A stretch of DNA of 64,000 nucleotides from Mesodorylaimus sp. YZB2_4 (lineage: Eukaryota; Nematoda; Enoplea; Dorylaimida; Dorylaimidae). A model generated the notes under the pieces. The model was not told the origin of the DNA and searched no databases. It saw only the letters and a list, made by a program, of their open reading frames with translations. Below, in pieces: positions 17,455-63,810 of the stretch; positions within the stretch are counted from its first letter, which is position 1; each line of letters opens with the position of its first letter. A program made the translations under genes and the position numbers. Where the stretch lies: assembly GCA_030248295.1 (NCBI GenBank), contig JASANH010001213.1, positions 868,001-932,000 of the forward strand, written 5' to 3'.

Positions 17455-17459
17455 TTCTC

Positions 17460-28502: not shown

Positions 28503-28534
28503 CTTTCAGGGTTGGCATAAACTTGGAAATGAAA

Positions 28535-30699: not shown

Positions 30700-31141
30700 C
30701 TAATTTCCAACTGTGGTCTCGCTCTCATCCAGAGTATTTGCAATGCACAGAAAATTATTTTGAACCCCCCAGAAATGATGCATCTCGAAATTATGCTACT
30801 GGTTTGGTTTTCATCTTTTTCAAACGGACAAAACCAAGGTATATTATCTTTTTCGCCACTTGTGTTACCAACATTGAGTTTTATCTCAGATTTTTGGGTT
30901 GACATGGTTCGCAGCGGGAACGGAACGACCCACATGGATGGATCACCATTGAGTGCGGCCTCCATGCAGACGTTGACCACTCTGGGCGTGGACGTGACCA
31001 GCTTGACGGACACCTATTACAAGTGGAACGTAACTGTAAAGATAGTATTTATGGTTATTGAGTTTCAAGTCATCATAGTAGAAGTTCCACCGCCAACAAT
31101 CCTCGAATTCGCCTTGTGTGAGATGGCTTTGATCGCTGGCG
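30700..31141 (+). CDS. Giant lectin gene, first supported exons (degenerate CTLD)
   Basis: Exon 30890-31141 starts DFWVDMVRSGNGTTHMDGSP and ends with FALCEMALIAG at a GTAAGA donor, phase 1 on both sides. It resembles the second half of a worn CTLD. An upstream exon, tentatively 30700-30801 (NFQLWSRSHPEYLQCTENYF), joins it in the right phase but uses weak sites (donor GTTTGG, poor pyrimidine tract). No signal peptide lies here, so at least one 5' exon is missing. Whether the true start is within the window is unknown. Confidence 0.5.
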
Positions 31142-34100
31142 GTAAGAATTCGTTCAGTGTACTTTCTAGAATCGCCCTTCGTGGCCGAAGGGAATGTTTT
31201 GTTGTTTTCTTCCTGTAGAAGCGGAATGCCCATGCTCATGGTACAACTTCAGTTCCACTTGTTTCAAGCTTATCAATATCCCAGGCGGCACGATGGATGT
31301 CGCCATGAGCAGTTGCGTTGCTGCAGGTCAAGGGATGACCAGCCCCTCAATTTTGGCCCGCAGTCTGGATCTGGTCTACAGCAATAGAATTTATGTTAAG
31401 AAAATGTACCCCTATGGTAAGGCATGCGTCATGTCATGGGTTATTTATTGGACGCTCTCCTCTCGCAGCTTGCCCTGGGCCAGAGTGGGGCATTGTATTG
31501 GGTGGCAATGATGGCGGCTCCGGTACTTACTGTTTCAAAATGTTACCCAACAAACTGGATTGGCGCACGGCCGAGAAAGAATGTCAGAAAGTTGTGGTCA
31601 ATGACAAGGCTTCGCACCTCCCATCATTCCATAATCTGTACAGTATCAATATTTGGGAAGACTTTTTAGAAGCCCAGTTTATTCGAAATTTCTTATGCAT
31701 GAATAACATGACCAGCGAATCGCATTTTTGGATCGGTCTCAACGACTACGCGGATCCGAAACATGTCACCTTTGCCGACAGTTTCATGCCAGCGAGCCCC
31801 TTCGATAAACTAGTGACTGGAGCCATGCATGCTAATCCTGGAACATGCGTGTATTGGGACAAGAATGACAATAAATGGCATCAACGCGACTGCAACGACA
31901 AAGTGAACTTTTTTTGTCAAGCCGATGGTAGAAGTTCAGGACGTGAGTTTTTCACTTGAAAAAATCTGCCGTAACAATAATGACGAATCTTTTTCAGCGT
32001 GCAAAGCAGGCTGGGTTTTCATGAGCCCAATATGCTACAAGTTTCTGGATACTCGGATGAGTTTTGATAACGGCGATGCAGCATGTCGAGCCGAAGGTGG
32101 CTCCATGGTCTCTTTTCATGTGGATTACACTTGGCAACAGTTTCAAAACTATTCGTAAGTTGGCATGGGCATGAGCCTGTAGGCATCATAGATTCGTCAG
32201 CTGCGCACAACTGCAATAGTTATTATGCTACGACCGGGTCTATATTATTGACAGTTGGGACCAGTCAAGCTTTCGCACCAAGCCAAAAACGCAGACCAAC
32301 TAACCAGGTATTCCCACCTTTTCCGTAGCGCCAAGATTGGTGACGCTCCAGTTGCAGACCCTGCGCTTAGTATCGATCGCAAGCGAAGCCTCTAATTTCT
32401 CTAAATCCACTACGTATATGAGGCGTCGGTAGCTCTCTTTTCAAGAGCGCACTGTAGCCCGCTCTTCGTGGGTTTGTTCCACCATGTTTGTTGTGGACTT
32501 CGTCCACCTAAGCGACAATTTTTGACCTCTCTGGTCAGTCAAACCTTCCAAGCAATTCTGGGCGGGGTCTTGCTGCGCGCCTCCGCTGCATGAGCAAATA
32601 ATCTGTTTTCTTTGAGAATATACACGCTCTCCATGCTCAGCATAGTGCCGCGTGTATGTGCATACATTCCCAAAGAAAACAGGTAATATGTACACGATGC
32701 CATGCAGGACGAGACGCCAACTTTCTTAAACAATCCTCTGATCAATTGGCTGTGCCAGCGTATGATAGCCTAGACTTTACCAAGTTCCCCAGCCAGGGGA
32801 GAGTAATCGATACTCTCCTCTGGCTAGGAAACGTCAACCCCTCGGGTTGATCTTTCAGCCGTAGGTATAGTCGCAAGACTTGCCTGCTCCAGTCGGGGTT
32901 TCTTGTCCCGGGTCGGCCCTCAAGAGAGGGAAAGGTCTTCCTCCCGGGAAGAGCGACGGCGTCGTCGCTTCTTCTGTCGATGGGAGGAATGTAACGCCTC
33001 CCTCCTACGCCTGCCAGGCTTGCTTACATCTTCCGCAACGCACCTGGAGGAACGGTTCAGTCAATCTCAGCAACAGTATGACTCACAAGTCGACCAGTTG
33101 GGTGGCTGAACCCGCGACGAGCCTAGCCGCTTGATAGGTACCCTGCAATAAGCGTGCAGCTGCCACTGCACCTCCACAGCCGCTCCTGCGTGTTGATGCT
33201 GCTAGCACAAAGGATAGAATACATGTCGTCAATAAAAAAGCTCAGATGATGATAATTGCAGCACTGGCTTGATCAATTTGTTCGAAGTGGATGGTTCGAA
33301 GGTTTACGAAGACATGTTCATCGGCATGAGGTGCACCAGCGGCGTCGTTTCAGACCAAGCTTGTTATCAGTTTCTGGACGGCAGCGCACCGTGGGGATTT
33401 TGGGACAGCCCGGCTACCATGTTATCAGCTGCCACAGACCAATGCGTGGTAATAAGTCGAGCAGCGAATAACCACTTTTCCTGGAGGAATGGTGACTGCA
33501 ATACACCTCGTGCAATAGTCTGCCAAGAATGGCCTGCTCGGAGTGAGAGGCTGCTAATGAGGGTTCCCAGCGCTGTGCTAAAATTGCTTCTCTCTGAACT
33601 GTAGATTCCACCTGCTCGGATGGCTACGAATCGGTGGGCGCAGGTCCAGAACAAAAGTGTTACAAATATGTTAGCACCCCTGTCCCGCTAAGTTGGCCAG
33701 ATGCAGAAAAGTTGTGCCATCAACAAGGCGGTGTTTTGCCTGTGGTCGTGACAACGAGTTTTATCGGCGGTTCGAATTTGTACGCTAACTGGCCAAACTT
33801 TGTTGAATGGAGGTGAGCCTTGTTTGATGTCAGTCTTTCAGCGCCCGCCATCGTGTTTTTAGGGCGAGTCTCCCTTACCCGAATAATCGCATTTGGATGG
33901 GCTGGTCGAAATATGCGGATGGGACGTGGGTGGCGAACAATTTGTTAGTGCTTGCTGGATCGACCAGCACATTCTGGGGCCTGAACAGTTACCGGAAAGA
34001 AGATTATGCCATTTCGATCAAGGGCGTCGAGAACTATTTGATGGTGACTGATACTATCAATAGTACGGCCAATGTCATTTGCATGCAGAACCGCAACAGT

Positions 34101-37100
34101 AAGTCCAACGTGACTAGACGTCTTATGCATTGTCTACTTCAACATTCAACTCATAGCATAAGCCGCCCTATGACTTAACTAATGCATACAGTATGTCTGA
34201 CCTGCCTGCGTCAAAGGCAGTTCAAACAAGAATACACATGCTTACTTTACTTAAAATGCTTACTTTGTTCTTAGACAGATCAAAAGGTAAATCGCTCAAG
34301 CGAAATAATCGATTTGCCTGTGTTGATAAAAGGTTGTTCACGAGCCCTAGTGCAATTAAGCCTGAAAAGCGAGTCAAATCTCCGCCTGCTGCTGAAACAC
34401 CAGACTGTAAGGTTGATATTTTGGCCAGGGGTAGACATTCTCTTTCACTGTATAACCAAGAAGGTGTCTGCATTGCCCGCCGAGTAAGGTTTTTTAATAG
34501 CTCTGAGGCCGCGGTCGCTCTAGGGCAGAGAATACATAATTCTAAAGGTCTTTTAGTTTATTTCTTGTGGTCGCACAACTGGTAGAAAACAAATCTGATG
34601 ATGACTTCCTGGACGAGCTGCCCTTTATTTCGTAGGAATAGACCAAGAACAATTTGAGTTCCTATTTTGCCAGAGTTTCTATTTTGCCATTACTGCTGAG
34701 TTTCTATTTTGCCTTGTTTACTGAATAAAATATATTCGCCATTGCTCGAAAACAACTAGGAATTATTGCAAAATGGGGCAAGCTATAAAGGAAAAGGCAA
34801 ATCCGCTCTTTGAATTCCAAGGCAAAGAGCCTCTTACCTAAGGATCTGGCGCGTAATTTAAAGCAAGTACAGTTTTAGAACAATGCTAGTGGAATCTGTA
34901 CGAATAAACCGAATGATTTTCTTTTCCTTAGTGTGGCCCACTCCAGAGAACAGTTCTCCAGATTAGATCTGGAGCATAGGTTCGGAATTGCTCCCAGAAT
35001 AATTGCAATGCGACCGCGAGCGGAGGTGATTGTGACCTTTTTTCTTTTTCAGCTTGTTCTAACACAACACTATTCTATCAAACGCCAAGGGGGGCGTGTT
35101 ATTTTACTGACGAGTCTGTTCGCAACTACATTGACGCTGACAGGTTATGTCAAGAGAATAATGCACGTCTGGCTACATTCGATTATCAGTCGAACTGGGA
35201 CGATTTCGATATGCTGCGGTAGGTTTTCTTCTGTTTTTTAAATTTATCTTAATTTATTTTCTGTATACCCGCAGAAAGGTGATGATTAACATTCGATACC
35301 CGAAACTGGCATGGATCGGATATAATCGGGGTCCAATATATGGCCCCAACTTAACGCCTTACCTGAACATCCACTACGGTCGCGCGCATACGGACCTCGG
35401 AGCCAATGGATGGCAACCATGGGACACCAGCGAGCCTGGTAACTCGTTGGACGGGCAGTCCTATTGTGTGGCCCTGACTGGCACTAATGGTGGTGAGAAG
35501 ATCATGGACGATGTGTGTGTAAATCTGCTGGGCACACTGTGCAAACAGCCGAGTACATATGAGCTCTATCCTTCACCATATTTTTAATTTGACAATTGAT
35601 CTATTACAGATAATTACAACGCTGGCTACATATCATATGCGGGCAGTGGCTTCGACCCACTCGACTACCACGCCATCGCTAACGGGACCGCTATGACCTT
35701 CGCACAAGCTCAAACACAGTGCCAAGCCGACGGCGGCCAAGTACCTGCCTTCCACACGAAAAACGAGTGGAATGATTTCCTGCGCTATCGATGGGTCAAA
35801 CGCGACACAGGGTTCCCACACCAAATGGGAAAGGTATGGATATCTTTGCAACGCGCTTCGGCAGAAAGCATGAACTGGAGTTGGGCGAACACTGCCTCGA
35901 GCAATTACAACTGGACCAACTGGGCGACGGGGTACCCGACCGTTAACCCGACCCAGCTGTGTACGATGAGCGATGCTACCATGAATAACGACGATATGCC
36001 GTGGCAGAATGCACCATGCACCGACTCCTACAGTGTGATCTGCCAAGTTAGGAAGCTGGCTATCAAAAATAGTAAGTTTTGTAATACCTGCATTAGATGC
36101 TGTATGTATCCGTCCAGCTCTGGCAGCTAGTTGGAGAGTATGCACTGTATTGACTCACAAATCGCTTGATCCCTTTTCAGCCTGCCCACCCGGCTACGTA
36201 TATCTGAACATCTACAACCGCTGTTTCGTTCCATTGACCAATTATACCAGCGTGAATCGAGAAACAGCTGAAGTGATTTGCGACCATTTTGGCATGACCT
36301 TACCCAGTTTTGGTTCCGTTGCTGCTTGGAGCGCATTTGGTGAATGGGTGTAAGTTGCTCAGGTTGGCCTAAGGTAGGTCAGTGCCGGACTGGTTTTTTC
36401 ATAGGACCAACATCAATACAGCAGCCAGATACACGATCAATGATACCTTCTGGCCAATCTCAAGCTTCTGGCTTGGCGTGCAAAACCCGACTGGCACTGC
36501 GTGGAAGTACGATGACACGACCAGCTACAGCTCAACCACCTGGCGTCTTCCATCCCCTGCTGGAGCCAATTGTGTTATCAGTCAGAAATCGCTGAACTTT
36601 ACATGGAAAAATGTGGATTGTCAGCAAACTAATGCGACCAATCTTTTGTGCCAGCAAGTACCTCGCAAAAAGCAGTGTCCAAGATCATTCCGGCAAGCTA
36701 GTCCAATTAGTACAACCATTTGTTACCAATCGTCCAAACCGGCAGCTACTTCCTACCAACAGGCTTTGAGTCAGTGCGCTGCAATCGGGGCTTCTTTGCC
36801 CAGTTTTCATGACTACACTGAATGGAAAGACTTTTTGAAACAGAAGGGTTTTGAAGAAGCCATCCATCTAGCACCCATGACGGAACCGGGATTCTGGCTT
36901 GGACTCAAGGATAATGGGAATTCGACCTGGGTTTGGGCTGACAAGACTAGCTATAACTGGAACTATTGGACAGTCGATGTCGAACCGAAACAAGGAAACC
37001 AATGCGTCGTGGCAGATTTCAGCAATGCAGAATGGACTTGGAGAACGGAAAGTTGCAGCAGCGCGGTCAGCTATGCCGTGATGTGTCAACTAAGGGTGCC

Positions 37101-40100
37101 TCCTCCACCAAACAGTAAGTAGATGGTCGTCCACGTCTGTCTTGTGCTACTCTACTGTAAGCAGGCGCGGGGAAAGCTACTGAGGGTGAGCGAGTGGTCT
37201 CAAAAACACTCTAAAATGCCTCATAATCACGGGAGTAGGACCCGTCGGGATTCTACCTAGCATGCAGAGTGCATTGACGCACAGATCAGGTTTAAAAAAG
37301 TGTAACCAGCATTCCAGGCCGTCGGGAGATCGGTACCTCCCCTAGCTGGGAGACGTCAACCTCCCTGGTTGATGTTTCTAGGCCAGGTATAGTCGCGAGA
37401 CTTGCCTCCCTCCAGCTGAAGGTTGTATTGTTCCCGAGACTTCGATCCCTCACTTCTCCCGCCGCCTGGGTGCGCTGGTTATAAAAGCATCCAAGTACGC
37501 AGTGGGAACTAAGTCTCTTGCCGCTCATTGGGGCTCCTGATCCTAAAACCCCACCGCGACCGGGATGAGATGTCTGATGCAGTCTGGCGATTCGCAGTCG
37601 GTCAGTACACCAGACGCCACTGTTGTTGCAGCATGCCCCGACGGCTGGGCTCAGATTGGGCAGCGGTGCTATCGATTAATGAACTACGTGACCACGACCA
37701 CTGCCGATCAGGGCTCCATCGACTGCACCAGTGTTAGAGGCGCCTTGCCCACCTTCGACTCTCTGCAGCAATACCAAGCGTTTCTTGGCTGGAAGTAAGT
37801 GCATCGTGGCGTATTCTGATAAACTTTGATGTAACTGCCTGTGCTATAGGTTCAACCTGGACAGAATGAATGGCATGAAATCGCTAAGCTACTTCACTGG
37901 TTTGGTCATGACTGCTCTGAACGTATTCCAATGGCCGGACGCGAGTGCTCTAAACTTCACAGCTACTGTACCATGGGCGGCTGGGCAGCCTGGAACAACG
38001 GCGCCAGCGTGCGTTTGGGCTGGTCTGCAAGGGAACTATAGCTGGAGCACGGTACCGTGCAGTCAAATGACAGAAAATCTATTCTGCGAATATGTGGCTA
38101 CCATTGGTAAGTGCAAGTGTGATTTATGTACGGCGCAAGGGCCATGCATTACAGTAGCTATGCTTCTAATCTTCGTTTAAAACATGCCCTTGACTTTTTG
38201 ATGCAGCTAGTTCTAGAATTTGAAAACTGGCGCTGCTACAGAAATGCGATAAAACTGAGACCTGAAAAAATGGCTGGGGCCTCTCATTGTTCGACCTTTA
38301 GACCTTCATAGCCTTCGCCAGTCGTGCGGGCCATAGCAAGTGGGAGGGAGTTTCCTTTGACTGGGAGACGGCTGATGTTTCAGGCGAAAGTGTAATTGCA
38401 AGACTCGCCCTATCCCAGTCTGACTGCCTTATCAGGATTGCACCTTCCTAGCTGTACTGTAGCGATTGCTCTCGATCTGTAGAGTAGCGGATATGGGGTT
38501 TATTTTGTGATGAACACTTGCCGGTTGGCGCCTAGTGTATCAAAACCTCCCAGTTCACTATACGGTACGGTAGTCCGTTTCTCGAATCTGCTCCTATTTT
38601 CTACAGGCAGGAGAAGTTTATGCTCCAGCGCCTCGAATGTCGAGTTGGACTATGTATAATCTGTACACTTTCGAGCCAGGCGACAATTATTTTTTACATG
38701 CTGGTTGCACTGATTTGAGACTGACTCCCTTTCTTTAGGTTATTTCATTACAACGCTTCAGTGTACAATTTTTCCTTTTAATCCAATTTTCTTTATTTTT
38801 AGAAACCTGTCCCACAAATTGGAAGCAAATAGGCGGCATTTGTTACAAACAGGCTGACCCGTCATTGGCTTCGCTGTCAGGCACCGACTTCACATACCTT
38901 CAAGGCCAGCAGCTTTGTGCATTGGAAGGTGGCACTCTGCCAAGCTTCCATTCATTGAAAGAGTGGAAGGACTTTAACCTGATACGGTACCTATGTTCTG
39001 GCCGCACCCTCATCTCATCTCTAGTCACACAGGCCGAATTATGGCTTTTCTTGTAGGCACTATCAAGCATTCCTGAAGAACGTGTCGTTTTGCCCTGCCG
39101 TTTGGATTGGTTTGAAAGATACGAATCAAGACCTCGCGTGGAAATGGATTGATGGGTCCAACTACAATTTTACGGTTTGGATAGCTGGTGTGGAGCCCAG
39201 CAAAGGGGCCGGAGCGGATTGTGTAATGTCACCATCTTTCGAAAATAGCACGGGCGACGGCGTTTGGACAACGTCCTTATGCACTGGCCAGAATTCAGTG
39301 GTGTGCCAGAAACGAATGACACCTCTGACAAATCGTAAGATTGCTCGAATCAATGTGTATATTGATCTGAAAGAAGCTGCTTCCTTTGATTTCAGCTTGC
39401 AAACCCGGATTTTCGTATCTCAACGAAAGTACCCGCTGTTTTATTCCGCTTACCAACTACACTGGCTTGACTCGAGACCTCGCTGAAGCTGTATGCGATT
39501 CACTCAATCTGACTCTGCCGAGTTTCCAAACCGCAGCTGCTTGGGTACAGTTCGCAGCCTGGGTGTAAGTACACTTGGCTTTTATCTTTCGTGTTTCATC
39601 TAAAATTGAGCTTGGCCTGGAACTCTAGGAAGAACTTTAACACCGCCAAGGTCTGGTCCAACAGCGACACCAAATGGCCCATGTCCGACTATTGGATCGG
39701 TCTGAAATACGATACCGGCATCAGCGGCTGGCAGCCCGACGATACCATGACAACCTACGACCCAATTGAATTCCCACTTTCTTCGTCACCAGAGTGCATT
39801 CTGAGCAAAGCAGCAACAAATTTTACTTGGTCGAACATCGACTGCTCAACTGTAGCCCCCAGTCTGATATGTCAAGACGTTCCGAGAAGGAAAGTGTGCC
39901 CTAACGGATACCGCCAAGCCAGCCCCTCGATTTGCTACCTGCAAACTAGTCCCTTGGCCAGCACTGCTCACGATCAAGCACTGGCACGATGCAAGGACAT
40001 CAATGGAACGCTGCCCAGCTTCCACAACTTGTCCGAATGGAATGATTTCATGAAGCAAAGGGCGCTTATCGAGAAGATTCAAGGATTTGCGATGACGGAG

Positions 40101-52100: not shown

Positions 52101-55100
52101 TTAAGAATAATCTTTTTTAGTGTGTCCCGCTGGTTGGGCGCAAGTTAGTGGCCACTGCTATCGTCTACTAAATCAAATCCCATTCGCTGTGAACAAAGAA
52201 CAAGGCCAACTGGATTGCAGTAGCGTCCAAGGAGCCCTGCCAAGTTTTGACTCCCTGAGTAACTATCAAAATTTCTTGGTTTGGAAGTAAGTTGATGTGA
52301 AACCAGGTAACGTACATGAGCCCATTCATCCTTATAATTCCAGAAATAACCTTGCTCGAAGCAAAGGCATGAACGCTTCTGACTTCTACACCGGACTGAT
52401 TCAAATATCGTCTATGGTGTATGAATGGCCCAACAAAACAAACATGAACTGGAGCAGTACCGCGCCTTGGGCTGCTGGACAGCCTCTGACGGCCCCAGAC
52501 TTGTGTATCGGGGCTTTGCAGTCGACCAATTTCAGTTGGAATTCAATCCCTTGCACAGACACCATGCCCTCATTATTTTGCGAGATCGCCACAATCAGTA
52601 AGCGCAATTTGTCAATCACTTATTTTTTCTGGACGACTTTCTTTTTAGGCAATAACTGCTCTGCTGGATGGAAACAAATCGGCGACAACTGCTATAAAGT
52701 AGCCAACGCATCCCTTTCTCCAAATAACACCACGTTCACGATGGCTGAAGGCGACGCAGCGTGCAAGGAAGAGGGTGGAAACCTTCCTAGTTTTCATTCC
52801 CTGAAGGAGTGGTACGAATTCGACATGATAAGGTCAGTTGTCCCATTTTAATCTTCGTGGGTACTAGGTCGCTTGTTATGCTGACACGAGATTATTAAGC
52901 GAGGCGGATACGGTAGGATACCTACCATACCTCGTTTTGTTCGAAGTGTCGGTGGCTGGGGGAGTTGGCTCAACGTCAGTAGGGAGAAGCCAGGGCAGTA
53001 CAAGAACAGGCCGCTGGGTGAGAAGAGTGCTCTCCCTTGCTTTCGCTCGCTCGCTCGATTCGTTTTCAGTTAATTGTTCTAAATTCATAGGGAGCCTCCC
53101 TTCATATTTGCCCAGCCCTTTTGGCAAACCTGTTGTGTGGCCAGGGACTTCGATTAGCATACTCTCGAGGGCCCTATGCGGTCGTCGTTTTCTTTGGTTC
53201 ATACTGGAAGAGTTTAGAAGTTGACTTCTGGGCAGCTGGTTTGCCTGCGGATTTGTCTGTTGGTACTGTAATAGCCTAGCGAGTCAGGCTAGGCGGCGTG
53301 CGATAATATGTAGACGAAAGACTATTCAACGAGACTTTAATTCTGACGACCGCACGGGACACTCACGCAATACAGACTGATTCTGATTGACGAAAGCTCG
53401 ACAGACAACACGGCACCAATGGGCAGGGCACAGCAATCAATCAGCGGACCCGCAAGGCGCGGCGAACAAAGAACGGGCAGGAAGGAAGTGTCTGACTCAC
53501 CGGCAAGGCCGTCCAGGGGACCAGATCACAAAAGAAAGGGGGCTAACCAAATTCGAATAGCCACACCCTTACAGTACGACTGCTGAGACATCGTCGTGCA
53601 TTGCTGTGCTCGTAAGGATCCTCGTATTGATTTGTCTGTACTACGCCATCGACAGTGGAACTGTTCCCCCGCGTGGGCATCTTAGTAGGACCAGGTGTAT
53701 TCGACTAGTGACTAGTGACTAGACTAGCCTGGCTAGTGTATCGTGCTGGAACAGAGTAGTTGTGGGCAACCAGAGGCGCGGCATACACGCCTGAGAGGTT
53801 TTTACAGGAATCGGGGTCTTATTGATCGATACAGAAAAGAAAAGAAGACAGAAAACAGAAAACCTTCGACTGCTCGCTTTTAAGGGCAGCCCAAATCCTC
53901 CGTCACGCCAGCGTAGGATATCTATAGTCGTCGCAACAACAGTATAAGGCCAGTAGTTTTCTTTGACTTCACTAACTGATAATCTAATAAAGGCCTTTAC
54001 AAAACGCGCACAGAGTTTCTTGAGGGCATAGACAGCTTTAAAAATGTCATACGGATGCTGCAGCCAGAAAAAGAACACACACAAAGCACACAAAGAAAGG
54101 TACCAAACTATTAACCCACAGGACAATGTCACGATTTTAGTAATAAGCCTGGGTATCGCCGATGGCTTTTGCCCCCCATCAAAAGCTAGGGCAGAACCGA
54201 ACCTTTCAAATGTCACTGGAGAGCAATTTTTTCGATTGCTTCTCGTGGGATTGATTGAAGCAAACCTTACACCACACTCAATTCGCACAATAAACGGTAC
54301 TGCAAGGTTTAAGTGGCTTTTTCTAGGAGGCACTATGCGATGGTCACTAACCGCACCACGCTCGGCCCTGTTTGGATCGGTCTGAATGACACTAATCAAG
54401 ACTTCATCTGGCAGTGGCACGATGGCTCAAACTATAACTGGACGTATTGGGAGCCCGGGTTGGAGCCAAGGGCAGGACCCAGCCTGGACTGCGTGCAGGC
54501 TCAAGCATTATCCACCCCTTCAGACATGGGTTCTTGGAGCACGGCTTCGTGTGATTCGACGAACGTTGTTTTGTGTCAACAGCGATTCGTACCTTTGGCA
54601 AATCGTAAGACGTTTGCTAAACCATTCTTGGCTTATGCAGCCCATCCAACCGATATCTGCTTTTTTAGCGTGCAGACCAGGCTTCGCCTTCTTGGACAGT
54701 TGTTCTCGCTGCTTCATCCCCCTTACCAACTACACCAACCTGCCACGAGACATGGCTGATGCCGTATGTGATGCCCTTGGCCTGTCTTTGCCTAGCTTTA
54801 GCGACATTAATGGCTGGACAGTTTTCGCTGAGTGGATGTAAGCATCTCAATTGTTTTGTTTCGCGCAGTTTTATAGTATAGTTTTTCTCAAATTAGAAAC
54901 AACATAAACGGAGCTGCGAGATGGACGGTCAATGACACAACATGGCCAATCTCCAATTTCTGGATTGGAGTAAAATATGATAGTATTGCGGTGATGTGGC
55001 AGAATGATGACGCCTTGACAGCATACGCACCTATATTCCCAGTTCCGGCAACACCCAATGGAGCAGATTGCATTATCAGTGATAGGGAACCCAGTTTCAA

Positions 55101-58100
55101 TTGGTCCACAGTCGACTGCATCAGCATGACAGCAAGCAATCTGGTCTGCCAAGACGTACCGAAGAGGAAGATCTGCCCTGGATCATTCAGACAGGCTACA
55201 GAGACTGTCTGCTATCTCCAATTGTCACCTTCCGCAAACAATTACGATCATGCCCTGAGCCAATGCCAAGCAATCGGGGGAACACTGCCCAGTTTCCACA
55301 ACCAGTCGGAATGGAACGATTTCCTGAGACAGAAGGCTATCGTGGAAGCAATTCAAGGGTATCCTTTTGCGGAGGCAGGGATATGGCTCGGCCTGAAAGA
55401 TGCCATGGGAGATGGTACCTGGGTTTGGGAGGATGGCACAAACTTTGATTGGAATTATTGGACTTTTGGCGTGGAACCGATCATAGGACGCCCTTGCGTT
55501 GTGGCAGACTTGACCCAAGCAGACATGGCTTGGAAAACGGATAGCTGCACACCTGCTTTCAGTTATGCCATTATTTGTCAGTATCGACTGATCCTGCCTA
55601 CCAACGGTAATATTGACTCACAATCAGTGCTGCCTACCTAGCCAACATGCAAATGCCAACCTTTTTAGTGTGCCCAGCGGGGTGGACGCAGGTCGATGGT
55701 CGTTGCTACAAACTGTTGAACCAGATTCCGTTTCCCGTTGACACCGCGCAAGGCGAACTGGACTGCAGCGGAGTGCAGGGAGCCCTTCCCAGTTTTGATT
55801 CAGTGGCGTCTTATCAACAATTTCTAGCTTGGAAGTATGAAATGTAGAAAACAGGCTGTGTGCACGTGTTACTTTAACCGTAATGCTGCAGAGATAACCT
55901 GGCTCGAGGAAAGGGAATGACCACGACTGACTTCTACACCGGGCTGTCGCAACCGATGACTGGTGCGTACCAGTGGCCGAATCAGACCAGCATGAACTGG
56001 TCTGCGGCAGCACCTTGGGCGAGTGGTCAACCACTGGCCGACCCTGGCACGTGTGTGGCTGCCTTACAAGCTAGCAAGTATTCGTGGAGCGTTGTGCCCT
56101 GCACTCAAACCATGGCCAGCCTGTTCTGTGAATTCAGCGTTGTCAGTAAGTTTGGGAGATTTCAGTGGTTTTGAGGTTCTCACAGGCCGATGTACACTGA
56201 AGTCGGTGCGTCTAAAATCTAGAGAATATAGTGCTTCTGACTGTCTTGGCTGGTCACCGCATACAAATTTTCAGGTGCTCTTGCTAGCCTCTTAATATGC
56301 ATCTTGAGGCGAGGCAGAAGTCCGTTGGGGTGATTTCTCTAGCTCCTGCAACTAGACTTCTGCCTGGAGGGATTTTTAAACTATCTCCTCTAGCTGTGTC
56401 TTCTCCATTGTGAGACGGTCCAGCTTATTGTAGCACTGTTATGGCGTACATGAACGTTCCCTTCAGCTTCAAACTGCACTATTGGATGGACTCAAATCGG
56501 TGACACATGCTACAAGGTAGCCAACGTGTCCCTGTCACCAAATAACAGCACGTTCACAGCGGCCGAGGCAGCAGCTGCGTGTGAGCAAGAAGGCGGAAAA
56601 TTGCCCAGTTTTCATTCTCGGAGCGAGTGGAATGACTTCAACATGATGAGGTAGGCACGTGACGTTGTAAGTTTTTACCTGGCTAATATGATACCAGTAC
56701 ATGGAGTTATAGGCTTGTTGTAGTGTTAACGCAATCCTGCTTAGGGCACTGTAATTGGCTTACTGGGAAAATGTTCTGTCAGCCAAGTCAAAGATCTACA
56801 TGGCTGACGAAAAAACTGAAATTTCTTGGTTAATCAAGAGTAAACCTTTCAATAGTAATTTAGTTAGCTCTTGCGCTTAGATTATGACACGGGTGCGACA
56901 GGGCTATTGGCTAGTAGATGAAGTGGCATAGGCGTCAGGCCCTTGCAACAGCTTTCTAAGTAGAAAAAGGGACCAGATAAAACAGATAATATCTACATTC
57001 TGGCGCCCGCGGATAATGCCTGACCTTTTGCAGAAAACATTTCGCAGCACAAGCTAGTTCTACTACGATACCAACCGTCTGGATCGGCCTAAACGATACA
57101 GACCAGGACTTCCTTTGGATATGGCGAGATGGGTCCAATTACAACTGGACGTTTTGGACGCTTCCACTAGAACCAATCAGAGGACCTGGTCTGGACTGCG
57201 TTCAAGCGCAAGCATTGACCTCGAGCACAGATATCGGGTCATGGAGTACCAGGGCATGCAGCACCCCCAACGCTGTTCTATGCCAGCAGCGATTCACACC
57301 GCTGGGCAATCGTAAGCCGCAAACTTCTCTTGGTGAAAAATGCGAACTCATTCCCGTTTTGGCTGTTTAGCGTGCAAGCCAGGTTTCGCTTACTTGGACC
57401 GGTGCGCCCGCTGCTTCGTCCCCTTCACCAACTATACTAACTTGCCTCGTGACATGGCCGATGCGATCTGCGACAGCCACGGCCTGTCGCTGCCCAGCTT
57501 TGATACAGAAAATGGATGGATGGCATTCATCGATTGGGTGTATGGTTCAAGGGTGAAGATTAAGCTGTGTTTCTAGTGATGGGGACATTGTTTCAGGATC
57601 AACATGAACACTGCTGCTCGATGGTCTGCTAGCGACACAGTTTGGCCAATCAGCAACTTCTGGATAGGGCTCAAATACAGCACTGTGGACTCGACGTGGC
57701 AGAACGATGATGCCCTGACTAGCTATACCCCAGGCGTGTTTCCTGTGCCCGCGTCACCTGGCGGACTGGAGTGCGCGCTGAGTCAGCAATCGGACAACTT
57801 CACCTGGTCAACCGTCGATTGCGCTGTCAGAAATGCCACCAATCTGATCTGCCAAGACGTCCCGAAGAAGAAGGTCTGCCCTGGCTCCTTCCGCCAAGCC
57901 ACCGAAACAGTCTGCTATCTCCAAACGGCACCTTCGGCAAACAGCTACGACCAAGCCCTGAGCCAATGCCAAGCAATTGGGGGAACATTGCCCAGTTTCC
58001 ACAACCAGTCGGAATGGAACGATTTCCTGAGACAGAAGGCTATCGTGGAAGCAATTCAAGGGTATCCTTTTGTGGAGGCAGGGATTTGGATTGGTCTGAA

Positions 58101-61100
58101 AGACATTGTTGGTGACGGCACGTGGGTTTGGGAGGACGGATCCAATTTCGATTGGAATTATTGGACTGTTGGCGTGGAACCCACTGCAGGGCGTCTTTGT
58201 ACTGTTGCTGACCTTACAATAAAAGATTTAGCTTGGAAGACGGAAAGTTGCACTTCAACAAGCAGTTTTGCCACGATATGTCAGTATCGCCTCTTTTTGC
58301 CTCCAAATAGTAAGTCTTGGCTGTTGTAGCTGGTAGGTGTGAGATCCACAGGAAATTTTTCAGACTGTCCTTATGGTTGGGCCCAAATCGATGGTCACTG
58401 CTACAAGTTGTTAAACCAAATTCCGTTCCCAGTCAGTCAAGAGCAGGGTGAACTAGACTGTAGCGGGGTGCAAGGTGCCCTGCCGTCTTTCAGCTCGCTG
58501 GAGAATTATCACCATTTTCTCGCGTGGAAGTAAGATCTACTTGGAAACTAGGATCCCCGACATATATATTGTGTTTTCTACTGTTTTTTCTACAGGGAGA
58601 ACCTCGGCCGAGGAAAGGAAATGGCGACAACGGATTTCTATACTGGTCTTTCACAGCCCGCATCTAGCAGTTATCAATGGCCAAATGAAACGAGTATGAA
58701 CTGGACAAGCACAGCGCCATGGGCAGCAGGCCAACCGCTACCTGACCCTGGCACTTGTGTAGCTGCTTTGAAAACCCACAATTACTTATGGAGTGTGGTA
58801 TCCTGTAGTCAAGCTATAGCAAACCTCTTTTGTGAACTGAGCGTCGTCAGTAAGTCCCATCATGCCCCTGATTCACAGTTTGTAGTATCTGCGGTATTTT
58901 GTAGCAAACAATTGTACAACGGGTTGGACCCAAGTTGGTGACATTTGCTACAAGGTGGCTAACTCCACTCTCTTACCGAACAACAGTTCGTTCACTATGA
59001 TCGAGGCGGATGCTGCATGCAGAGCGGAAGGAGGAAACTTGCCGAGTTTTCATTCGATGAGTGAATACGAAGATTTCACGATGATGAGGTTGGTCTGACT
59101 GGGGTTTCTTCCCTCCCGATATTACTATCGCTTATCGCTTGAGCTCTCTTACTGTGTTCAGATTTAACTAGTGATTATTTTCAAGGAGGCGCACCGCCGT
59201 CGAAACCAAGGGCGCAACGCTGGGGTCGATCTGGATTGGTCTCAACGGCACGAGTCAGGACTTTGTATGGCAATGGCATGACGGCTCCAACTACAACTGG
59301 ACATATTGGATGTCATCTGTGGAGCCAAGGGTCGGAGAGGACTGTGTGCAGGCGCGGGCTCTGTCCTCAGTTTCTGACACAGGACCCTGGGCTACGATCA
59401 ATTGCGATACCAGAAGTATGGTTTTATGCCAGCAACGCTTCACAAAATTGTCAAATCGTAAGTGACACATACCGGACTTTTAAGCATTTGGTGAGTTCCG
59501 CATTTTGTATTTAGCATGCAAGCCTGGTTTTGCATATTTGGAAAAATGTTCTCGATGCTTTGTTCCGTTCACAAACTTCACTGATCTTGCCAGGGATATG
59601 GCCGACGCTGTGTGCGATGCTCATGGATTATCTTTGCCGAGCTTCCAGACCGCCGATGCTTGGATCGCCTTTGTGGACTGGGTGTAAGTTTCTTATGCAG
59701 AGATCCGTTGGCTCATTCTGTCTACTAAGACAATAGTTCTGTATTACTGTGGCCAGCGACCCTGACTGGTGCTGGCTCTGGGCTATTCCCCCAAGGGAAG
59801 TGAAGTACTCGTACTGCCTGCATACACGTCAGAGGAAGATGAGTTGGTCCTCACTTTTCCCTTATCTTGAAAGTAACGTGGCCATGTAGAGAAACTGGTG
59901 TGGCATGGGTCTCGCCAACAGAATTTAAAGCATTATTTAAAAAAAAACGGAATGTCTGATAGCAAACATTTTAGAACCAACATTAACATCGCCGGACGCT
60001 GGACGTCCAATGACACAATGTGGCCAATTTCTGACTTGTGGCTTGGTCTTCAATATGACACTGACTCCTCCCTGTGGCAATACAGTGACGATGCTACCGT
60101 GTATGCTGCTGATCAGTTCCCGCTGCCATCAAGATCAAACGGAGCCGATTGTGTGAAGACTGATCTAAGCACTAATTCCTCGTGGTCGAATGTCGATTGT
60201 CTGCAAAATAAAGTGTCGAGCCTGATTTGCCAGGACATACCAAAACGAAAAGTTTGTCCCAACGCTTTCCGCGAGGCAAATCAGCAGGTCTGCTATCTTC
60301 AAACCACACCAGCTGCAAGCTCGTACGATCAAGCTCTCGCTCAGTGCCAGTCCATTCAAGGCACACTGCCAAGTTTCCACAACCAATCGGAATGGAATGA
60401 CTTCCTGAAGCAGAAGACGATTGTTGAACTATTGCAGGGTCGTCCTCTCAGCGAAAGAGGAATATGGATTGGACTGAAGGATGCTGTCGGCGACGGAACC
60501 TGGGTTTGGGAAGATGGGACTAATTTTGATTGGAATTACTGGACTGTCGGCACCGAACCTATTCTGGGACGTCCTTGTGTCGTTGCTGACATGGCACAGC
60601 CTGATCTTGCATGGAAAACGGAGAGTTGCACTCCTGCAATCAATTACACAATGATCTGCCAGTATCGCATAGTAACTCCACCAAATGGTAGGTCCCTACT
60701 GTCTTGCACATGGAACTATTGCGCATTGATTCTCTGTTTCAGTTTGTCCTGTGGGCTGGGCTCAAGTTGATGGCCGTTGTTACAAACTTCTTAACCGGAT
60801 TCCGTTCCCAGTCAACAGTGCACAAGGCGCGTTGGACTGCGGCAGCGTGCAGGGTGCATTGCCCAGTTATGACTCACCGGCGAACTATCAGAATTTCCTT
60901 GCCTGGAAGTAAGCTGTAATCAAAAATGTATCACATATTGATCTTATACTCACTGCTTACACTTTCAGAGACAATTTGGCTCGCGGAAGGGGAATGGCGA
61001 CCACTGATTTCTACACTGGTCTAGCACAATCGTCAACTGGTGGCTTTCAATGGCCGAATCAAACTAGCATGAATTGGACTGCCTTTGCTCCTTGGACTAC

Positions 61101-63810
61101 AGGCCAACCTTTGAGTGATCCTAACACTTGTGCAGTCGCGCGACAGGCTGCTAACTACAGCTGGAGTATGGTGCCGTGCACCCAAACAATGGCTAGCCTT
61201 TTCTGCGAACTGAGCTCAATAAGTAAGTGCCCTTCTGTTTTTTTTCTTTGCAGCTTCTAAAGTGTGGCCTTTCAGCGAGCAACTGCACCACGGGTTGGGT
61301 TCAGGTTGGTGATAGCTGCTTCAAGGTGGCAAATGCGTCCCTGTCACCCCACGATGGCACATTCACAATGGATCAGGCTGCTGCTGCGTGTGCGCAAGAG
61401 GGTGGGAACTTGCCGAGTTTTCATTCACTGAACGAGTGGAACGACTTTAACAAAATGAGGTAAGTCATTCTAATTACCGAAGCTACTACAGTCTGCAATA
61501 TCAGGCAGGTTGCAGATCACACAGTATGTGCCCTTGGATAATTAGCCTGCACGTAATACGCGTGATTTCTCACCTGTATCTGCACAACAGTAGCTGTGGC
61601 TCGAGGAACTAAACCACCTATAGCCGAGGGTAGGCATGAGACCGAAATTTAGTGGCTGCTTTTTTTGTTGAGGTCTTCATTTCATGGTCAGAGTTGCAGT
61701 TTGTGCGATTCTACCATGGGACCATCAGAGCCCCTGTCTGGCCGACATGTAAGCCTACTCCCGCATTGATTGTGAGTCTCTAAGCGGTGTGGTGTGGAAA
61801 ACGCGGCGCGGTGCGAGAAACTAAGCACACGATGGCCGTGGACTCGCGTGGGATCAATCCTGCGGCTTGAGCCGTCCACCAGTCAGCCTTGATACTCCAC
61901 AAGGCGGACAAAGTGTTTTACACTCGAATAGTCAAGAATCGCATCCAACTTCTGACATGTAGTCAATCCTAGCGATGAAGAAATTTCCTTTTGCAGACGT
62001 CACTTTGCCTTGCACACGAACAGCTCAACTATTGGACCAGTCTGGATCGGCCTGAATGACACGAACCAGGACTTCCTTTGGCTCTGGCGAGATGGTTCTA
62101 ATTACAACTGGACTTCGTGGACACCGTCAGTGGAACCGAGGAAGGGATCAGGAACAGATTGTGTTCAAGCCCGACCACTGGTTTCTAGCGCTGATCTGGG
62201 GTCGTGGAGTGCAACTACGTGCGGCACGTCTAATGTAGTTCTGTGTCAGCAGCGATTCACACCACGTCGGAATCGTAAGACCACATTATTGCACTTGGTT
62301 TACTTGTCTGTAGGTGGACTCTGAACTTTTAGCTTGCAAACCTGGTTTTTCATATTTGGATCAATGTACTCGATGTTTCATCCCACTTACGAACTATACC
62401 AAGTTACCTCGAGATATGGCTGACGCAGTTTGCGATGCCTTTGGCCTCTCGCTTCCTAGCTTTGACAGCCTAAATGGCTGGATTGCATTCGTTGATTGGG
62501 TGTAAGTAGTGCATAGAAACAAGCCTGTTTCTGTGTTTAGTTTCTGACTGCTCCTTCTCAGGGTTAACATTAACACAGCAGCCCATTGGAGAGACAATGA
62601 CATCACTTGGCCAATCACTAGCTTTTGGACTGGTCTCAAATACGACGATATTACTATGACATGGCAGAACGACGACGGGCTGACATCATATTCCCCTGGC
62701 GTAATTTCAGTTCCAGCTACATCCACTGCAGCTGGTTGCATCGTCAGTGATAAGGCACTGGGTTTCAATTGGTCCACTGTCGACTGTATGAGTCTGAGTG
62801 CCAAAAATCTAATTTGCCAAGATGTGTCGAAGAGAAAGGTGTGCCCAGGGTCATTTCGACAAGCTACGCAGACTGTGTGTTATCTGCAGACGACTGCACC
62901 AGCGAACACATACGACCAGGCTCTAAGCCAGTGCCAGGCCATTGGTGGTACGCTCCCTAGCTTCCATAACGAATCTGAGTGGGCCGACTTCCTAAAACAA
63001 AGGGAAATTGTTGAAGGGGTACAAGGCTATGCTATTGGAGAATCTGGAATCTGGCTTGGGCTCAAAGACCGTGTGGGCGATGGCACATGGATTTGGGAAG
63101 ACGGGACTAACTTTGATTGGAATTACTGGACCGTGGGTGTGGAACCAATGGGCGGAAATCCATGTGTTATAGCTGATCTCATGCAGGCAGATCTGGCGTG
63201 GAAGACAGAAAGTTGCACGCCAAATGTAAATTATGCGATGATTTGCCAGATGAGGTTGGTTATGCCACCAAATGGTAAACAACCTTAGTTAAGGACAGGG
63301 TCGCTCAAGATGACTTAAACTGCGCTTTCAGCTTGTCCTGATGGTTGGGCACAAATCTATGGACGCTGCTACAAGTTACTCACTCATATCCCGTTTGCAG
63401 TCGACAGCTTCCAAGGCGCCCTCGATTGCAGCGGGGTCGGAGGCATTTTGCCAAGCTATGATTCCATAGAAAATTACGACAGTTTCTTGCTTTGGAAGTA
63501 ATCTCATGCTAATCCGGTTTTTGGACGTCTTTTTCTTATGGTTACATTTTTAGAAAGAACCTAGCCCGAGGAAAAGGCATGAACACCACTGATTTCTTCA
63601 CTGGACTTACACAAATCTCAGTGAGCCCTCACGTGTACACGTGGCCTAATCAAATCCTCATGGGATGGAGTCCTGGACCGTGGGCTGCTGGCCAACCTGG
63701 AGCCGAAGCACAAACCTGTGTTGTCGCCTCAGCCTCGAGCAATTATTCATGGAGTACAGTGCCATGTACTCAGACTGTACCATTCCTGTTCTGTGAACTG
63801 GGCCAGACAA
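30890..63810 (+). CDS. Giant multi-C-type-lectin-domain protein gene (partial: start unresolved, 3' end beyond window)
   Basis: About 73 exons join in one uninterrupted frame: 21,564 coding bases, 7,188 residues so far. GT-AG sites and reading phase agree at every junction I worked out. The protein is a string of CTLDs: about five complete and two partial ones (30890-36071), then ten complete four-domain units A-B-C-D of 574-588 residues and an eleventh cut by the window edge after C. Phase-1 introns lie between domains and a phase-2 intron splits A, C and D; B is intronless and fused to A's second exon. The LPSF motif marks the end of each first half. EPN/QPD and WND calcium ligands are replaced almost throughout, although the proline stays. 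N-glycosylation sequons are frequent. No EGF, Ig or membrane segment was seen. A secreted matrix, coat or recognition protein is inferred. No signal peptide exon was found. Confidence 0.9.
31219..31942 (+). CDS. Giant lectin gene, N-terminal half-CTLD and intronless CTLD
   Basis: Exon 31219-31416 holds only a first-half CTLD (CPCSWYNFSSTCFKLIN) and has no second half, so this domain is truncated. Exon 31469-31942 holds a complete CTLD in one exon, starting ACPGPEWGIVLGG, with WIGLNDYADP and ending NDKVNFFCQADG. Both exons are phase 1 at each end and can be gained or lost without a frame change. Confidence 0.8.
31998..33542 (+). CDS. Giant lectin gene, N-terminal CTLD split by a repeat-filled intron
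   Basis: Exon 31998-32154 (PCKAGWVFMSPICYKFLDTR) and exon 33262-33542 (from STGLINLFEVDG through CNTPRAIVCQE) together make one CTLD. The phase-2 intron of 1,107 bp contains a hairpin repeat and an R3 copy whose GAT tail ends right before the acceptor at 33261. Confidence 0.8.
32601..32690. repeat. Hairpin-forming inverted repeat in an intron
   Basis: The left arm at 32602-32625 (CTGTTTTCTTTGAGAATATA) faces the right arm at 32651-32683, whose reverse complement is CTGTTTTCTTTGGGAATGTA... A central CATGCTCAGCAT loop separates them. The right arm's outer 22 bases occur unchanged at 10529-10550. Confidence 0.6.
32780..33253 (+). repeat. Dispersed repeat family R3, copy 2, with LINE-like 3' tail
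   Basis: The left part (ACGTCAACCCCTCGGGTTGAT... TATAGTCGCAAGACTTGCC) matches the copy at 37315. The right end TCGTCAATAAAAAA (33226-33239) is identical to the end of the LINE fragment at 25372-25385 and is followed by a GATGATGAT tail. The acceptor of the next exon begins within eight bases of the tail. Confidence 0.55.
33605..34098 (+). CDS. Giant lectin gene, N-terminal CTLD (33.6 kb)
   Basis: Exons 33605-33812 (NSTCSDGYESVGAGPEQKCY) and 33863-34098 (RIWMGWSKYADGTW...VICMQNRNS) form one CTLD, phase 1-2-1. The C-terminal half lacks a recognisable Ca-binding loop. A 954-bp intron follows. Confidence 0.78.
34099..35052 (+). other. 954-bp intron of the giant lectin gene
   Basis: Bounded by GTAAGT and TTTTTCAG and spliced in phase 1. 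It contains a 130-codon plus-strand frame (34193-34585) without domain resemblance, and AT-rich sequence near 34660-34760. No exon was found inside that fits the phase. Confidence 0.6.
35053..36071 (+). CDS. Giant lectin gene, last two irregular N-terminal CTLDs
   Basis: Exons 35053-35218 (TCSNTTLFYQTPRGACYFTD) and 35275-35552 (LAWIGYNRGPIYGP...CVNLLGTLCKQPS) make one CTLD. Exon 35610-36071 is a whole intronless CTLD (QAQTQCQADGGQVPAFHTKN, VWISLQRA, YNWTNWATGYP, SVICQVRKL). The latter lacks the usual N-terminal Cys pair. It leads by a phase-1 intron into the first regular unit. Confidence 0.82.
36181..39334 (+). CDS. Giant lectin gene, unit 1 (CTLDs A1-B1-C1-D1)
   Basis: Exons: A 36181-36349; A+B 36405-37114; C 37632-37794 and 37850-38106; D 38803-38986 and 39057-39334 (587 codons). 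It is the most divergent unit together with unit 2. A reads TCPPGYVYLNIYNRCFVPLT, where later units have CKPGF, and B has an extra residue pair (SPISTTICY). D has the long insertion ASLSGTDFTYLQG that only unit 2 shares in similar form. Its B-C and C-D introns (517 and 696 bp) hold R3 repeat copies. Confidence 0.92.
37315..37480 (+). repeat. Dispersed repeat family R3, copy 3 (intron of unit 1)
   Basis: GACGTCAACCTCCCTGGTTG followed by ATGTTTCTAGGCCAGGTATA and GTCGCGAGACTTGCC parallels the copy at 32820-32890 with few differences. Confidence 0.6.
38330..38470 (+). repeat. Dispersed repeat family R3, copy 4 (intron of unit 1)
   Basis: GCTGATGTTTCAGGCGAAAG followed by TGTAATTGCAAGACTCGCCC matches the R3 core at the same spacing, more diverged than copies 2 and 3. 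Confidence 0.45.
39396..41795 (+). CDS. Giant lectin gene, unit 2 (CTLDs A2-B2-C2-D2)
   Basis: Exons: A 39396-39564; A+B 39629-40332; C 40754-40916 and 40969-41219; D 41275-41458 and 41515-41795 (584 codons). A is already PCKPGFSYLNESTRCF. C2 (CPDSWAQIGGHCYRLVNYVT) is a close sister of C1 with the same RMNGM segment, while units 3-11 have RGKGM; so C1/C2 are an older pair. The donor after C2 is the unusual GTTTGC, supported by phase. Confidence 0.92.
41857..43953 (+). CDS. Giant lectin gene, unit 3 (CTLDs A3-B3-C3-D3)
   Basis: Exons: A 41857-42025; A+B 42129-42826; C 42892-43057 and 43105-43352; D 43408-43576 and 43682-43953 (574 codons, the shortest unit). From here C carries RGKGM and D starts NNCTVGWKQIGDNCYK. 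D3's first exon is 15 bases shorter than in most units, missing the NNSTFT-type loop. The donor after C3 is CC|GTGAGG. Confidence 0.93.
44006..46286 (+). CDS. Giant lectin gene, unit 4 (CTLDs A4-B4-C4-D4)
   Basis: Exons: A 44006-44174; A+B 44230-44942; C 44998-45163 and 45220-45473; D 45525-45690 and 46009-46286 (582 codons). A4 introduces the QCARCF start shared with units 5, 6 and 9. B4 is divergent at its beginning (MCPHIFHDASSTVCYLESMP). D4's first exon is short, like D3's. In D4's second half the usual WIGL has become WTGLKDTSQDFTW. Confidence 0.93.
46346..48831 (+). CDS. Giant lectin gene, unit 5 (CTLDs A5-B5-C5-D5)
   Basis: Exons: A 46346-46514; A+B 46572-47284; C 47347-47512 and 47570-47823; D 48075-48258 and 48554-48831 (588 codons). 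The segment 46964-47421 is base-for-base like 55286-55743 in unit 8, including the 62-bp intron. Its A/B first part is nearly the same as in units 6 and 9. The A5 acceptor ends CAAG instead of the usual YAG. A typical domain is C5: FYTGLSQPMTGAYQWPNQTS with VPCTQTMASLFCEF. Confidence 0.94.
48892..51069 (+). CDS. Giant lectin gene, unit 6 (CTLDs A6-B6-C6-D6)
   Basis: Exons: A 48892-49060; A+B 49118-49830; C 49885-50050 and 50112-50365; D 50429-50612 and 50795-51069 (587 codons). A6/B6 up to about 49590 closely follow units 5 and 9; the rest of B6 diverges (NVGPLCVVADLANPNLSWRT). C6 has lost the P-L-x-D-P pattern and reads GQPGSAPEMC. D6's second exon is one codon short. Confidence 0.94.
51142..54604 (+). 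CDS. Giant lectin gene, unit 7 (CTLDs A7-B7-C7-D7), enlarged D intron
   Basis: Exons: A 51142-51310; A+B 51366-52072; C 52121-52286 and 52344-52597; D 52649-52832 and 54327-54604 (586 codons). Junction A7 changes Val to Leu (CT|C). The intron inside D7 is 1,494 bp because of an R1 repeat that itself carries an LTR-like insertion, yet the flanking halves still splice in phase. B7 shows FDWNHW where other units have FDWNYW. Confidence 0.93.
52925..53840 (+). repeat. Dispersed repeat family R1, copy 3, interrupted by an LTR-like insertion
   Basis: The left part (52937-53262) aligns with 6731-7015 and the right part (53578-53830) with 7030-7265, both in the same order and orientation. The gap between the halves is exactly the 53267-53573 insertion. 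A short GACTAGT tandem at 53704-53722 is private to this copy. Confidence 0.7.
53267..53573. mobile_element. Probable solo LTR (307 bp) with GTAC target duplication
   Basis: The insertion begins TGTAATAGCC and ends CCCTTACA, so the ends are the TG...CA of LTRs with a short inverted TGTAA/TTACA. GTAC flanks it on both sides (53263-53266 and 53574-53577), a four-base target duplication. Comparison with the uninterrupted R1 copy at 7015-7030 shows an empty site. There is no internal coding sequence, consistent with LTR-LTR recombination of a Gypsy-type element (inference). A short DNA transposon is the alternative. Confidence 0.7.
54669..57311 (+). CDS. Giant lectin gene, unit 8 (CTLDs A8-B8-C8-D8)
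   Basis: Exons: A 54669-54837; A+B 54897-55606; C 55669-55834 and 55892-56145; D 56467-56650 and 57034-57311 (587 codons). This unit is a mosaic. A8 (CRPGFAFLDSCSRCF, WINNINGAARW) groups with unit 7, while B8's second half, C8 and the first D8 exon are almost identical to unit 5. The breakpoint lies near 55285. The C-D intron differs in length from unit 5 (321 versus 251 bp) although both ends match. Confidence 0.94.
57371..59457 (+). CDS. Giant lectin gene, unit 9 (CTLDs A9-B9-C9-D9)
   Basis: Exons: A 57371-57539; A+B 57597-58309; C 58364-58529 and 58596-58849; D 58905-59088 and 59186-59457 (586 codons). A9/B9 track unit 5 and then unit 6 (shared KDIVGDGTWVWEDGSNFDWN) before becoming unique. 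D9's second half is two codons short and starts RRRTAVETKGATLGSIWIGL; its donor GTTGGT and acceptor CAAG are both weak but fit phase. Confidence 0.93.
59515..62274 (+). CDS. Giant lectin gene, unit 10 (CTLDs A10-B10-C10-D10)
   Basis: Exons: A 59515-59683; A+B 59975-60687; C 60743-60908 and 60969-61222; D 61276-61459 and 61997-62274 (588 codons). The A-internal intron (291 bp) is five times longer than in sister units and has no repeat I recognise. B10 carries the variant start CPNAFREANQQVCYLQTTPA. D10's second half reads LHTNSSTIGPVWIGLNDTNQ; the 537-bp intron before it may hold another worn repeat. Confidence 0.93.
62333..63810 (+). CDS. Giant lectin gene, unit 11 (CTLDs A11-B11-C11; D beyond the window)
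   Basis: Exons: A 62333-62501; A+B 62562-63274; C 63332-63497 and 63554-63810 (435 codons so far). The last exon ends at a clean GTAAGT donor in phase 1, so the gene continues. C11 is one codon longer and reads FFTGLTQISVSPHVYTWPNQ, with the IPFAVDS segment of the C family. B11 (GYAIGESGIWLGLKDRVGDG) is intermediate between units 5 and 7. Confidence 0.93.

Follow-up and report, generated by a model that had tools for sequence, protein, structure and literature searches.

Members of the mannose receptor family (DEC-205, PLA2R, MRC1/2) carry 8-10 C-type lectin-like domains (CTLDs) together with ricin-type and FNII heads, and canonical C-type lectins bind sugars in a Ca2+-dependent manner through the motifs EPN or QPD plus WND. 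Channel subunits of the DEG/ENaC family are recognized by the HG and FPxVTxC motifs that go with the first transmembrane helix (TM1) and by a G/SxS selectivity filter. For the EGAS proteins, one study reports currents that are not significantly different from those of water-injected controls. In a survey of seven nematode genomes, a class was added for genes with four CTLDs, and a single sequence belongs to it (PMC5297725). MST3, from the mastigoneme of Chlamydomonas, is an extracellular filament protein of 8,572 residues in which five CTLDs are combined with a PKD2-like channel domain that is incomplete. According to the authors' proposal, the N-terminus came to face outward once the first helix was lost, and could then acquire extracellular domains, with the missing helix provided by a second protein, SIP; whether such a helix loss occurs in other species is left open (PMC11015965).

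Here we describe a nematode gene (hereafter, the giant) that probably encodes a signal peptide, 73 CTLDs, one TSP1 repeat, a DEG/ENaC ectodomain starting at profile position 138, a second transmembrane helix (TM2) and a short tail, and hence a membrane-anchored, single-pass glycoprotein. A literature search, with subscription papers and general protein databases outside it, found no fusion of CTLDs with a DEG/ENaC part; as far as that search reaches, the giant is undescribed. To our knowledge, 73 domains would place it among the largest CTLD proteins.

The window is a stretch of 64,000 nucleotides (C21:868001-932000), which was joined with the next 40 kb to its right; the genome searched comprises 145 Mb in 1067 contigs. 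A splice-aware gene finder written here was run on the window and the 40 kb beyond it, and CTLDs were located with a profile built here from 20 near-full-length single-exon matches. The final model has 119 exons, 33,993 coding bases and 11,330 residues, and lies on the plus strand between window coordinates 30793 and 87092 (right end C21:955,092). The computed mass of the chain is about 1.2 MDa before glycosylation, and 236 N-glycosylation sequons are present. The gene is laid out as follows, in window coordinates continued past the right edge.

30793..31141, plus strand: exon 1, a signal-peptide-like start, then a degenerate N-terminal region without Pfam match; may contain one or two short introns
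31219..36071, plus strand: exons 2-10, with the first five CTLDs (31549-36052), collinear with paralogues
36181..39334, plus strand: unit 1, a tetrad of alpha, beta, gamma and delta domains in 6 exons
39396..41795, plus strand: unit 2, tetrad
41857..43953, plus strand: unit 3, tetrad
44006..46286, plus strand: unit 4, tetrad
46346..48831, plus strand: unit 5, tetrad, with patches that match units 8 and 9 at 95-96% identity
48892..51069, plus strand: unit 6, tetrad, containing a stop-free 54-nt GT-AG intron (49831-49884)
51142..54604, plus strand: unit 7, tetrad, with a 1.5-kb intron within its last domain
54669..57311, plus strand: unit 8, tetrad
57371..59457, plus strand: unit 9, tetrad
59515..62274, plus strand: unit 10, tetrad
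62333..63810, plus strand: unit 11, alpha, beta and gamma in the window; delta at 64685-65231, past the window edge
Beyond the window, between unit 11 and the last CTLD, plus strand: units 12-18
83584-84168, plus strand: last CTLD and, within the same exon, TSP1
84310-87092, plus strand: DEG/ENaC exons (Pfam ASC)

The initial annotation, which covered 30890..63810, had counted about 73 exons and 21,564 coding bases in one frame and had predicted that the gene continues past the window. Our model agrees closely, with 74 exons ending inside the window and 21,504 coding bases in that interval after a falsely retained 54-nt intron was split, and it carries the gene 23 kb further to the right. The earlier figure of more than 7,000 residues was correct in describing a very large protein, of which it caught only a part.

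All 118 introns are GT-AG, with a median length of 60 bp and 3' splice sites that resemble TTTTCAG. The sole in-frame stop among 11,218 whole codons is the terminal one, whereas the two other frames have stops at 459 of 11,212 and 489 of 11,153 codons. The median donor lies in the top 0.7% of background GT and the median acceptor in the top 0.8% of background AG, figures that are circular for the CTLD exons, on which the score matrices were trained, and independent for the DEG/ENaC introns. Taken together, the contrast in stops, the GT-AG introns and the splice-site scores indicate that the open array is not a product of chance. Exons start in phase 1 (59), phase 2 (54) or phase 0 (6), and every CTLD unit starts in intron phase 1, so that units can be gained, lost or skipped by splicing without breaking the frame. 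The stop-free intron of unit 6 has a counterpart beyond the window (70843-70896); both are 54 nt, a multiple of three, and if retained they would add short linkers and leave the frame intact.

Three exons at 88.5-91.8 kb were excluded from the model, as they resemble another gene. A Rfam scan of the window and the 40 kb beyond it returned nothing at the gathering threshold; the nematode SL1 leader had no match with up to one mismatch, and the Rfam SL1 model likewise found none, here or in control genomes. Beside the start of the giant, on the other strand, two adjacent open frames match tyrosinase (26283-28505, minus strand), and further left there are fragments of a reverse transcriptase, a Ras-family GTPase and a Cys-loop receptor (7643-8320, 16690-17475 and 19182-19937, all on the minus strand).

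A profile search of the joined translation, which the initial annotation had suggested, gave 73 CTLDs. Inside the window end 48 of these, two of them partial (nos. 3 and 4), in line with the roughly 48 complete domains plus partial ones estimated before. Membership of the array in the CTLD superfamily is indicated by the profile matches and by a WIGL-like core, present in loose form in 65 of the 73 domains. Pfam Lectin_C matches cover the array through the window and on to C21:951,506, and one alpha-beta exon scores 53.1 bits in 2 stretches against a cut-off of 22.6. From residue 210 to residue 10,932, no gap between CTLD matches exceeds 91 residues. The protein is made almost wholly of CTLDs over most of its length, as had been stated; its C-terminus is different, being composed of TSP1, a DEG/ENaC ectodomain and a membrane helix that lie outside the window, and the notion of a pure array has to be dropped for the whole protein.

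From the N-terminus the order is five leading CTLDs, 13 units of four, five units of three and one last domain. BLAST clustering leaves four of the leading domains and the final one without partners, and relates the fifth to later domains. Beta and delta domains fall into one cluster of 37 and were separated by exon structure. Clustering and exon structure alike recover the ten full four-domain units and the eleventh cut by the window edge that had been described. The tetrad, which takes 6 exons, is the rule for the 13 units only; the last five lack gamma and take 4 exons each.

The motifs of sugar-binding C-type lectins are scarce. EPN stands at the position before the Cys in two of the 73 domains, EPN or QPD occurs anywhere in the C-terminal half in eight, and the WND triplet is found in none of the 73, the W...C stretch being readable in 71; the combination of EPN or QPD with WND is therefore not found in the giant. 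Because WND is missing throughout and EPN is in position only twice, binding by the array, if any, would probably not be of the classic Ca2+/sugar type.

The TSP1 repeat that follows the last CTLD scores 23.0 bits (TSP_1, cut-off 21.6). After it the giant matches Pfam ASC with E 1.1e-47 over profile positions 138-453 of 455, that is, over the ectodomain and TM2, and its best relatives of solved structure in the PDB are ENaC-alpha (E 5.7e-25), ENaC-gamma and then ASIC1 (about 1e-23). Where ENaC-alpha has the filter residues GSS the giant has NID, a degenerate filter that does not fit G/SxS. This C-terminus changes the nature of the protein, which is predicted to be membrane-anchored and derived from a channel.

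What the channel part does is the point on which the main alternative turns. The same architecture can be read as a CTLD arm with an adhesive, cuticle-building or immune task, for which the DEG/ENaC remnant is a mere stalk in the membrane and has no part in any channel. We give this reading a little under an even chance: the filter residues are lost, TM1 was not found, and adhesion suits CTLD arrays, here without a single WND. Against it, an ectodomain that is kept from profile position 138 through TM2 exceeds the needs of a stalk, and at the filter two paralogues on C441 have SIS (C441-c) and SIC (C441-a). The confidence that we place in the architecture is divided about in half, one part going to a role in a channel and the other to the stalk, so that a pure anchor and a channel-regulating function appear about equally likely. 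The giant is most likely a membrane-anchored tether, and perhaps a regulatory DEG/ENaC subunit as well.

The DEG/ENaC end is likely to be devoid of TM1. A TM1 profile had a best E of 0.64 over the 41.4 kb upstream of this end, and a motif scan of the upstream sequence found nothing like FPxVTxC and four isolated HG-like matches, followed neither by a helix nor by FPxC. The profile derives from 4 sequences; it found the held-out L028 (E 7e-9) and nothing in L029, a locus where the ASC gene is matched from profile position 65 onward only and TM1 may lie elsewhere. With a sensitivity limited in this way, the absence of TM1 is likely and not proven. If TM1 were present after all, as an N-terminal hydrophobic segment or in an unseen exon, the giant would be a DEG/ENaC subunit with both helices and with the array as an insertion in its ectodomain. 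Room for this is left by the few training sequences and by the N-terminus, the least certain part of the model, where the signal peptide was judged by eye and further in-frame ATGs occur at 30775 and 30778. Judged by eye, however, the start has a hydrophobic core of just some 10 residues; N-terminal pieces of the giant and of C441-c lack an ASC match, and over five copies of the truncated ASC subtype at three further loci (three copies on C441, the others on C17 and C1) the TM1 profile does no better than E 0.28. A two-helix subunit is for these reasons unlikely, and we retain the single-pass reading. The hydropathy peaks of the uncorrected model were an N-terminal stretch with charged residues, the stop-free intron later removed, and TM2. 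By eye, an N-terminal region resembling that of the giant is also present in the C441 and C206 models.

The array and the DEG/ENaC part are closely linked. From the last CTLD exon to the first DEG/ENaC exon there are 141 bp, which hold an exon of 35 nt flanked by introns of 51 and 55 bp, intron sizes typical of this gene. Of the four splice sites of the link, three rank within the top 0.7% of background sites and one within the top 7%. Weaker sites occur within the DEG/ENaC part, where two acceptors reach only the top 16.5% and the top 31% of background AGs, and a donor the top 10.6%. Two genes, a secreted pure CTLD array and then a separate DEG/ENaC gene, are very improbable, since the second would have to begin without TM1 at so short a distance and since a paralogue, C441-c, has both ends in one modelled frame.

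This paralogue (25.4-39.9 kb on C441), whose model is the best among the relatives there, opens with a signal-peptide-like start, followed by CTLDs, by about 1,300 residues of Ser/Thr-rich mucin and by a DEG/ENaC end, the TM2 exon (39,966-40,082) having been read by eye. It aligns in one run with residues 209-1059 of the giant (34% identity, E 8.6e-139) and, through its channel end, with residues 10964-11181 (E 1.6e-30); in the hand-joined sequence its ASC match also begins at position 138 (138-453, E 1.9e-38). As C441-c aligns with both ends of the giant, these ends belong to one gene with an expanded middle, and the giant looks like a gene of the C441-c type whose CTLD units before the channel end have multiplied.

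C441 has four groups of CTLDs (0.3-0.7, 11.7-17.6, 27.0-34.0 and 44.5-49.9 kb), and in the intervals between them lie DEG/ENaC pieces (4.0-9.0, 20.3-22.8 and 38.4-40.1 kb). The fourth group aligns with residues 426-1345 of the giant and runs into a mucin, after which no DEG/ENaC piece was found up to 60 kb. C206 aligns with residues 34-708 and 772-1345; it was rejected as one fused gene, its CTLDs (11-18 kb) and DEG/ENaC pieces (66-68 kb) being too far apart. The relative on C17, read from open frames by eye, begins with a signal-like segment and a single weak CTLD, which at 17.2 bits does not reach the cut-off of 22.6; an unknown domain, a mucin and a truncated ASC follow; that on C1 (2274-2280 kb) has a mucin and then a truncated ASC, with no CTLD within the 6 kb examined. 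The domain between the weak CTLD and the mucin of C17 (L033, C17:84501-92500, minus strand) comprises about 165 residues, contains Cys and has no Pfam match, and the same locus has a second, similar copy about 3 kb upstream.

The Lectin_C search of the genome, in which 150 of 233 candidates were scored, revealed further CTLD clusters on C57, C264, C112 and more. In the CTLD stretches examined from C10 and C332 no ASC match was convincing (best E 1.8), so that not every CTLD cluster in this genome has a channel end. ASC matches number at least 114 (93 of 1,085 candidates scored), many of them in single long open frames, and other ASC genes could thus serve as partners of the giant. At L029 (C1) and L030 (C24), open frames with CTLD or EGF modules lead into a seven-helix-like region near separate DEG/ENaC genes; in L029 this region matches 7tm_2 with E 0.005, below the cut-off, and lectin-headed receptors are possible at both loci. 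The only COX1 copies found lie in contigs that look nuclear (C73:251-255 kb, C273, C741, C47 and others); the best copy can be read with an invertebrate mitochondrial code, and the copies are probable nuclear mitochondrial inserts.

Judged by its sequence, the giant descends from this smaller family of the same genome, with few CTLDs, a Ser/Thr mucin and the same truncated DEG/ENaC end, and its unit count appears to have risen to 18 through in-frame duplication. Codon identity between the 18 units has a median of 61% (153 pairs) and dS is finite in only eight of the 153, which marks the units as old; in those eight pairs, the ones with unsaturated dS, dN/dS is 0.07-0.25, and the units are on this basis considered to be under purifying selection. 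Recent duplication or gene conversion is suggested by patches that units 5, 6, 8 and 9 have in common at 86-96% identity, the longest exact repeat found in the array being 460 bp. In the unit tree, starred support is given to 1-2, 14-18, 5+8 and 6+9, and 11 of the 15 inner branches are unstarred. That the tandem units are a mis-assembled or decaying repeat, which such patches and exact repeats might bring to mind, is scarcely credible given the divergence of the units, dN/dS well below 1 where measurable and the lack of internal stops, and an assembly artefact, named earlier as what would undo the gene, is unlikely.

For the single-pass, channel-derived tether that we favor, the following mechanism can be proposed. 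Loss of TM1 and gain of a signal peptide would have put the N-terminus outside the cell, where a long arm could be attached; with TM2 kept and the signal peptide in place of TM1, the array would be extracellular and the chain would cross the membrane once. At approximately 4 nm per CTLD, an arm of 73 domains could reach up to about 0.3 micrometres. It may contact the matrix, the cuticle or another cell, with partners bound without canonical Ca2+/sugar chemistry. The DEG/ENaC part would anchor this arm, and it may also enter trimers of ordinary subunits in a non-conducting, regulatory or force-transmitting role. A bolder and improbable version makes the giant an animal counterpart of MST3: the first helix lost, the N-terminus outward, and the arm, possibly variable in length, serving a mixed DEG/ENaC trimer as its gating spring or ligand antenna. 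In this version another chain might supply TM1 in trans, and units would be gained, lost or skipped to tune the length of the arm.

Compared with the systems described so far, the giant shares tandem CTLDs with the mannose receptor family, and the best solved relative of its beta-type domain is DEC-205 (whole-sequence E 4.2e-27); it differs in having 73 CTLDs and a DEG/ENaC tail, and no ricin-type or FNII head was found, its first 181 residues being without Pfam match. With ENaC and ASIC it has in common a homologous ectodomain from profile position 138 and TM2, whereas the TM1, HG and FPxVTxC regions were not detected, the filter is NID and a CTLD array is attached. EGAS proteins are similar in that extracellular modules are fused to an ASC domain; these modules are EGF in EGAS and CTLDs in the giant, whose N-terminal and tail pieces gave no Pfam match to EGF, and the likeness covers modules and ASC, topology and ancestry aside.

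MST3 offers a close parallel: both proteins have a huge ectodomain with CTLDs and a channel domain without the first helix, although MST3 has a PKD2-type channel, five CTLDs and a polyproline axis. A PDB search with the beta-type domain also returned MST3 (9b4h, E 5e-5). The giant looks as if an animal had followed the route of MST3 with a different channel family, and it would bear on the question raised in that work, whether channels acquire giant extracellular arms in general by losing the first helix and so turning the N-terminus outward (PMC11015965). Since a series of paralogues is present in one genome, from C17 with one weak CTLD and a mucin, through C441 with about 7-9 CTLDs (by eye) and a mucin, to the giant with 73, this route becomes testable.
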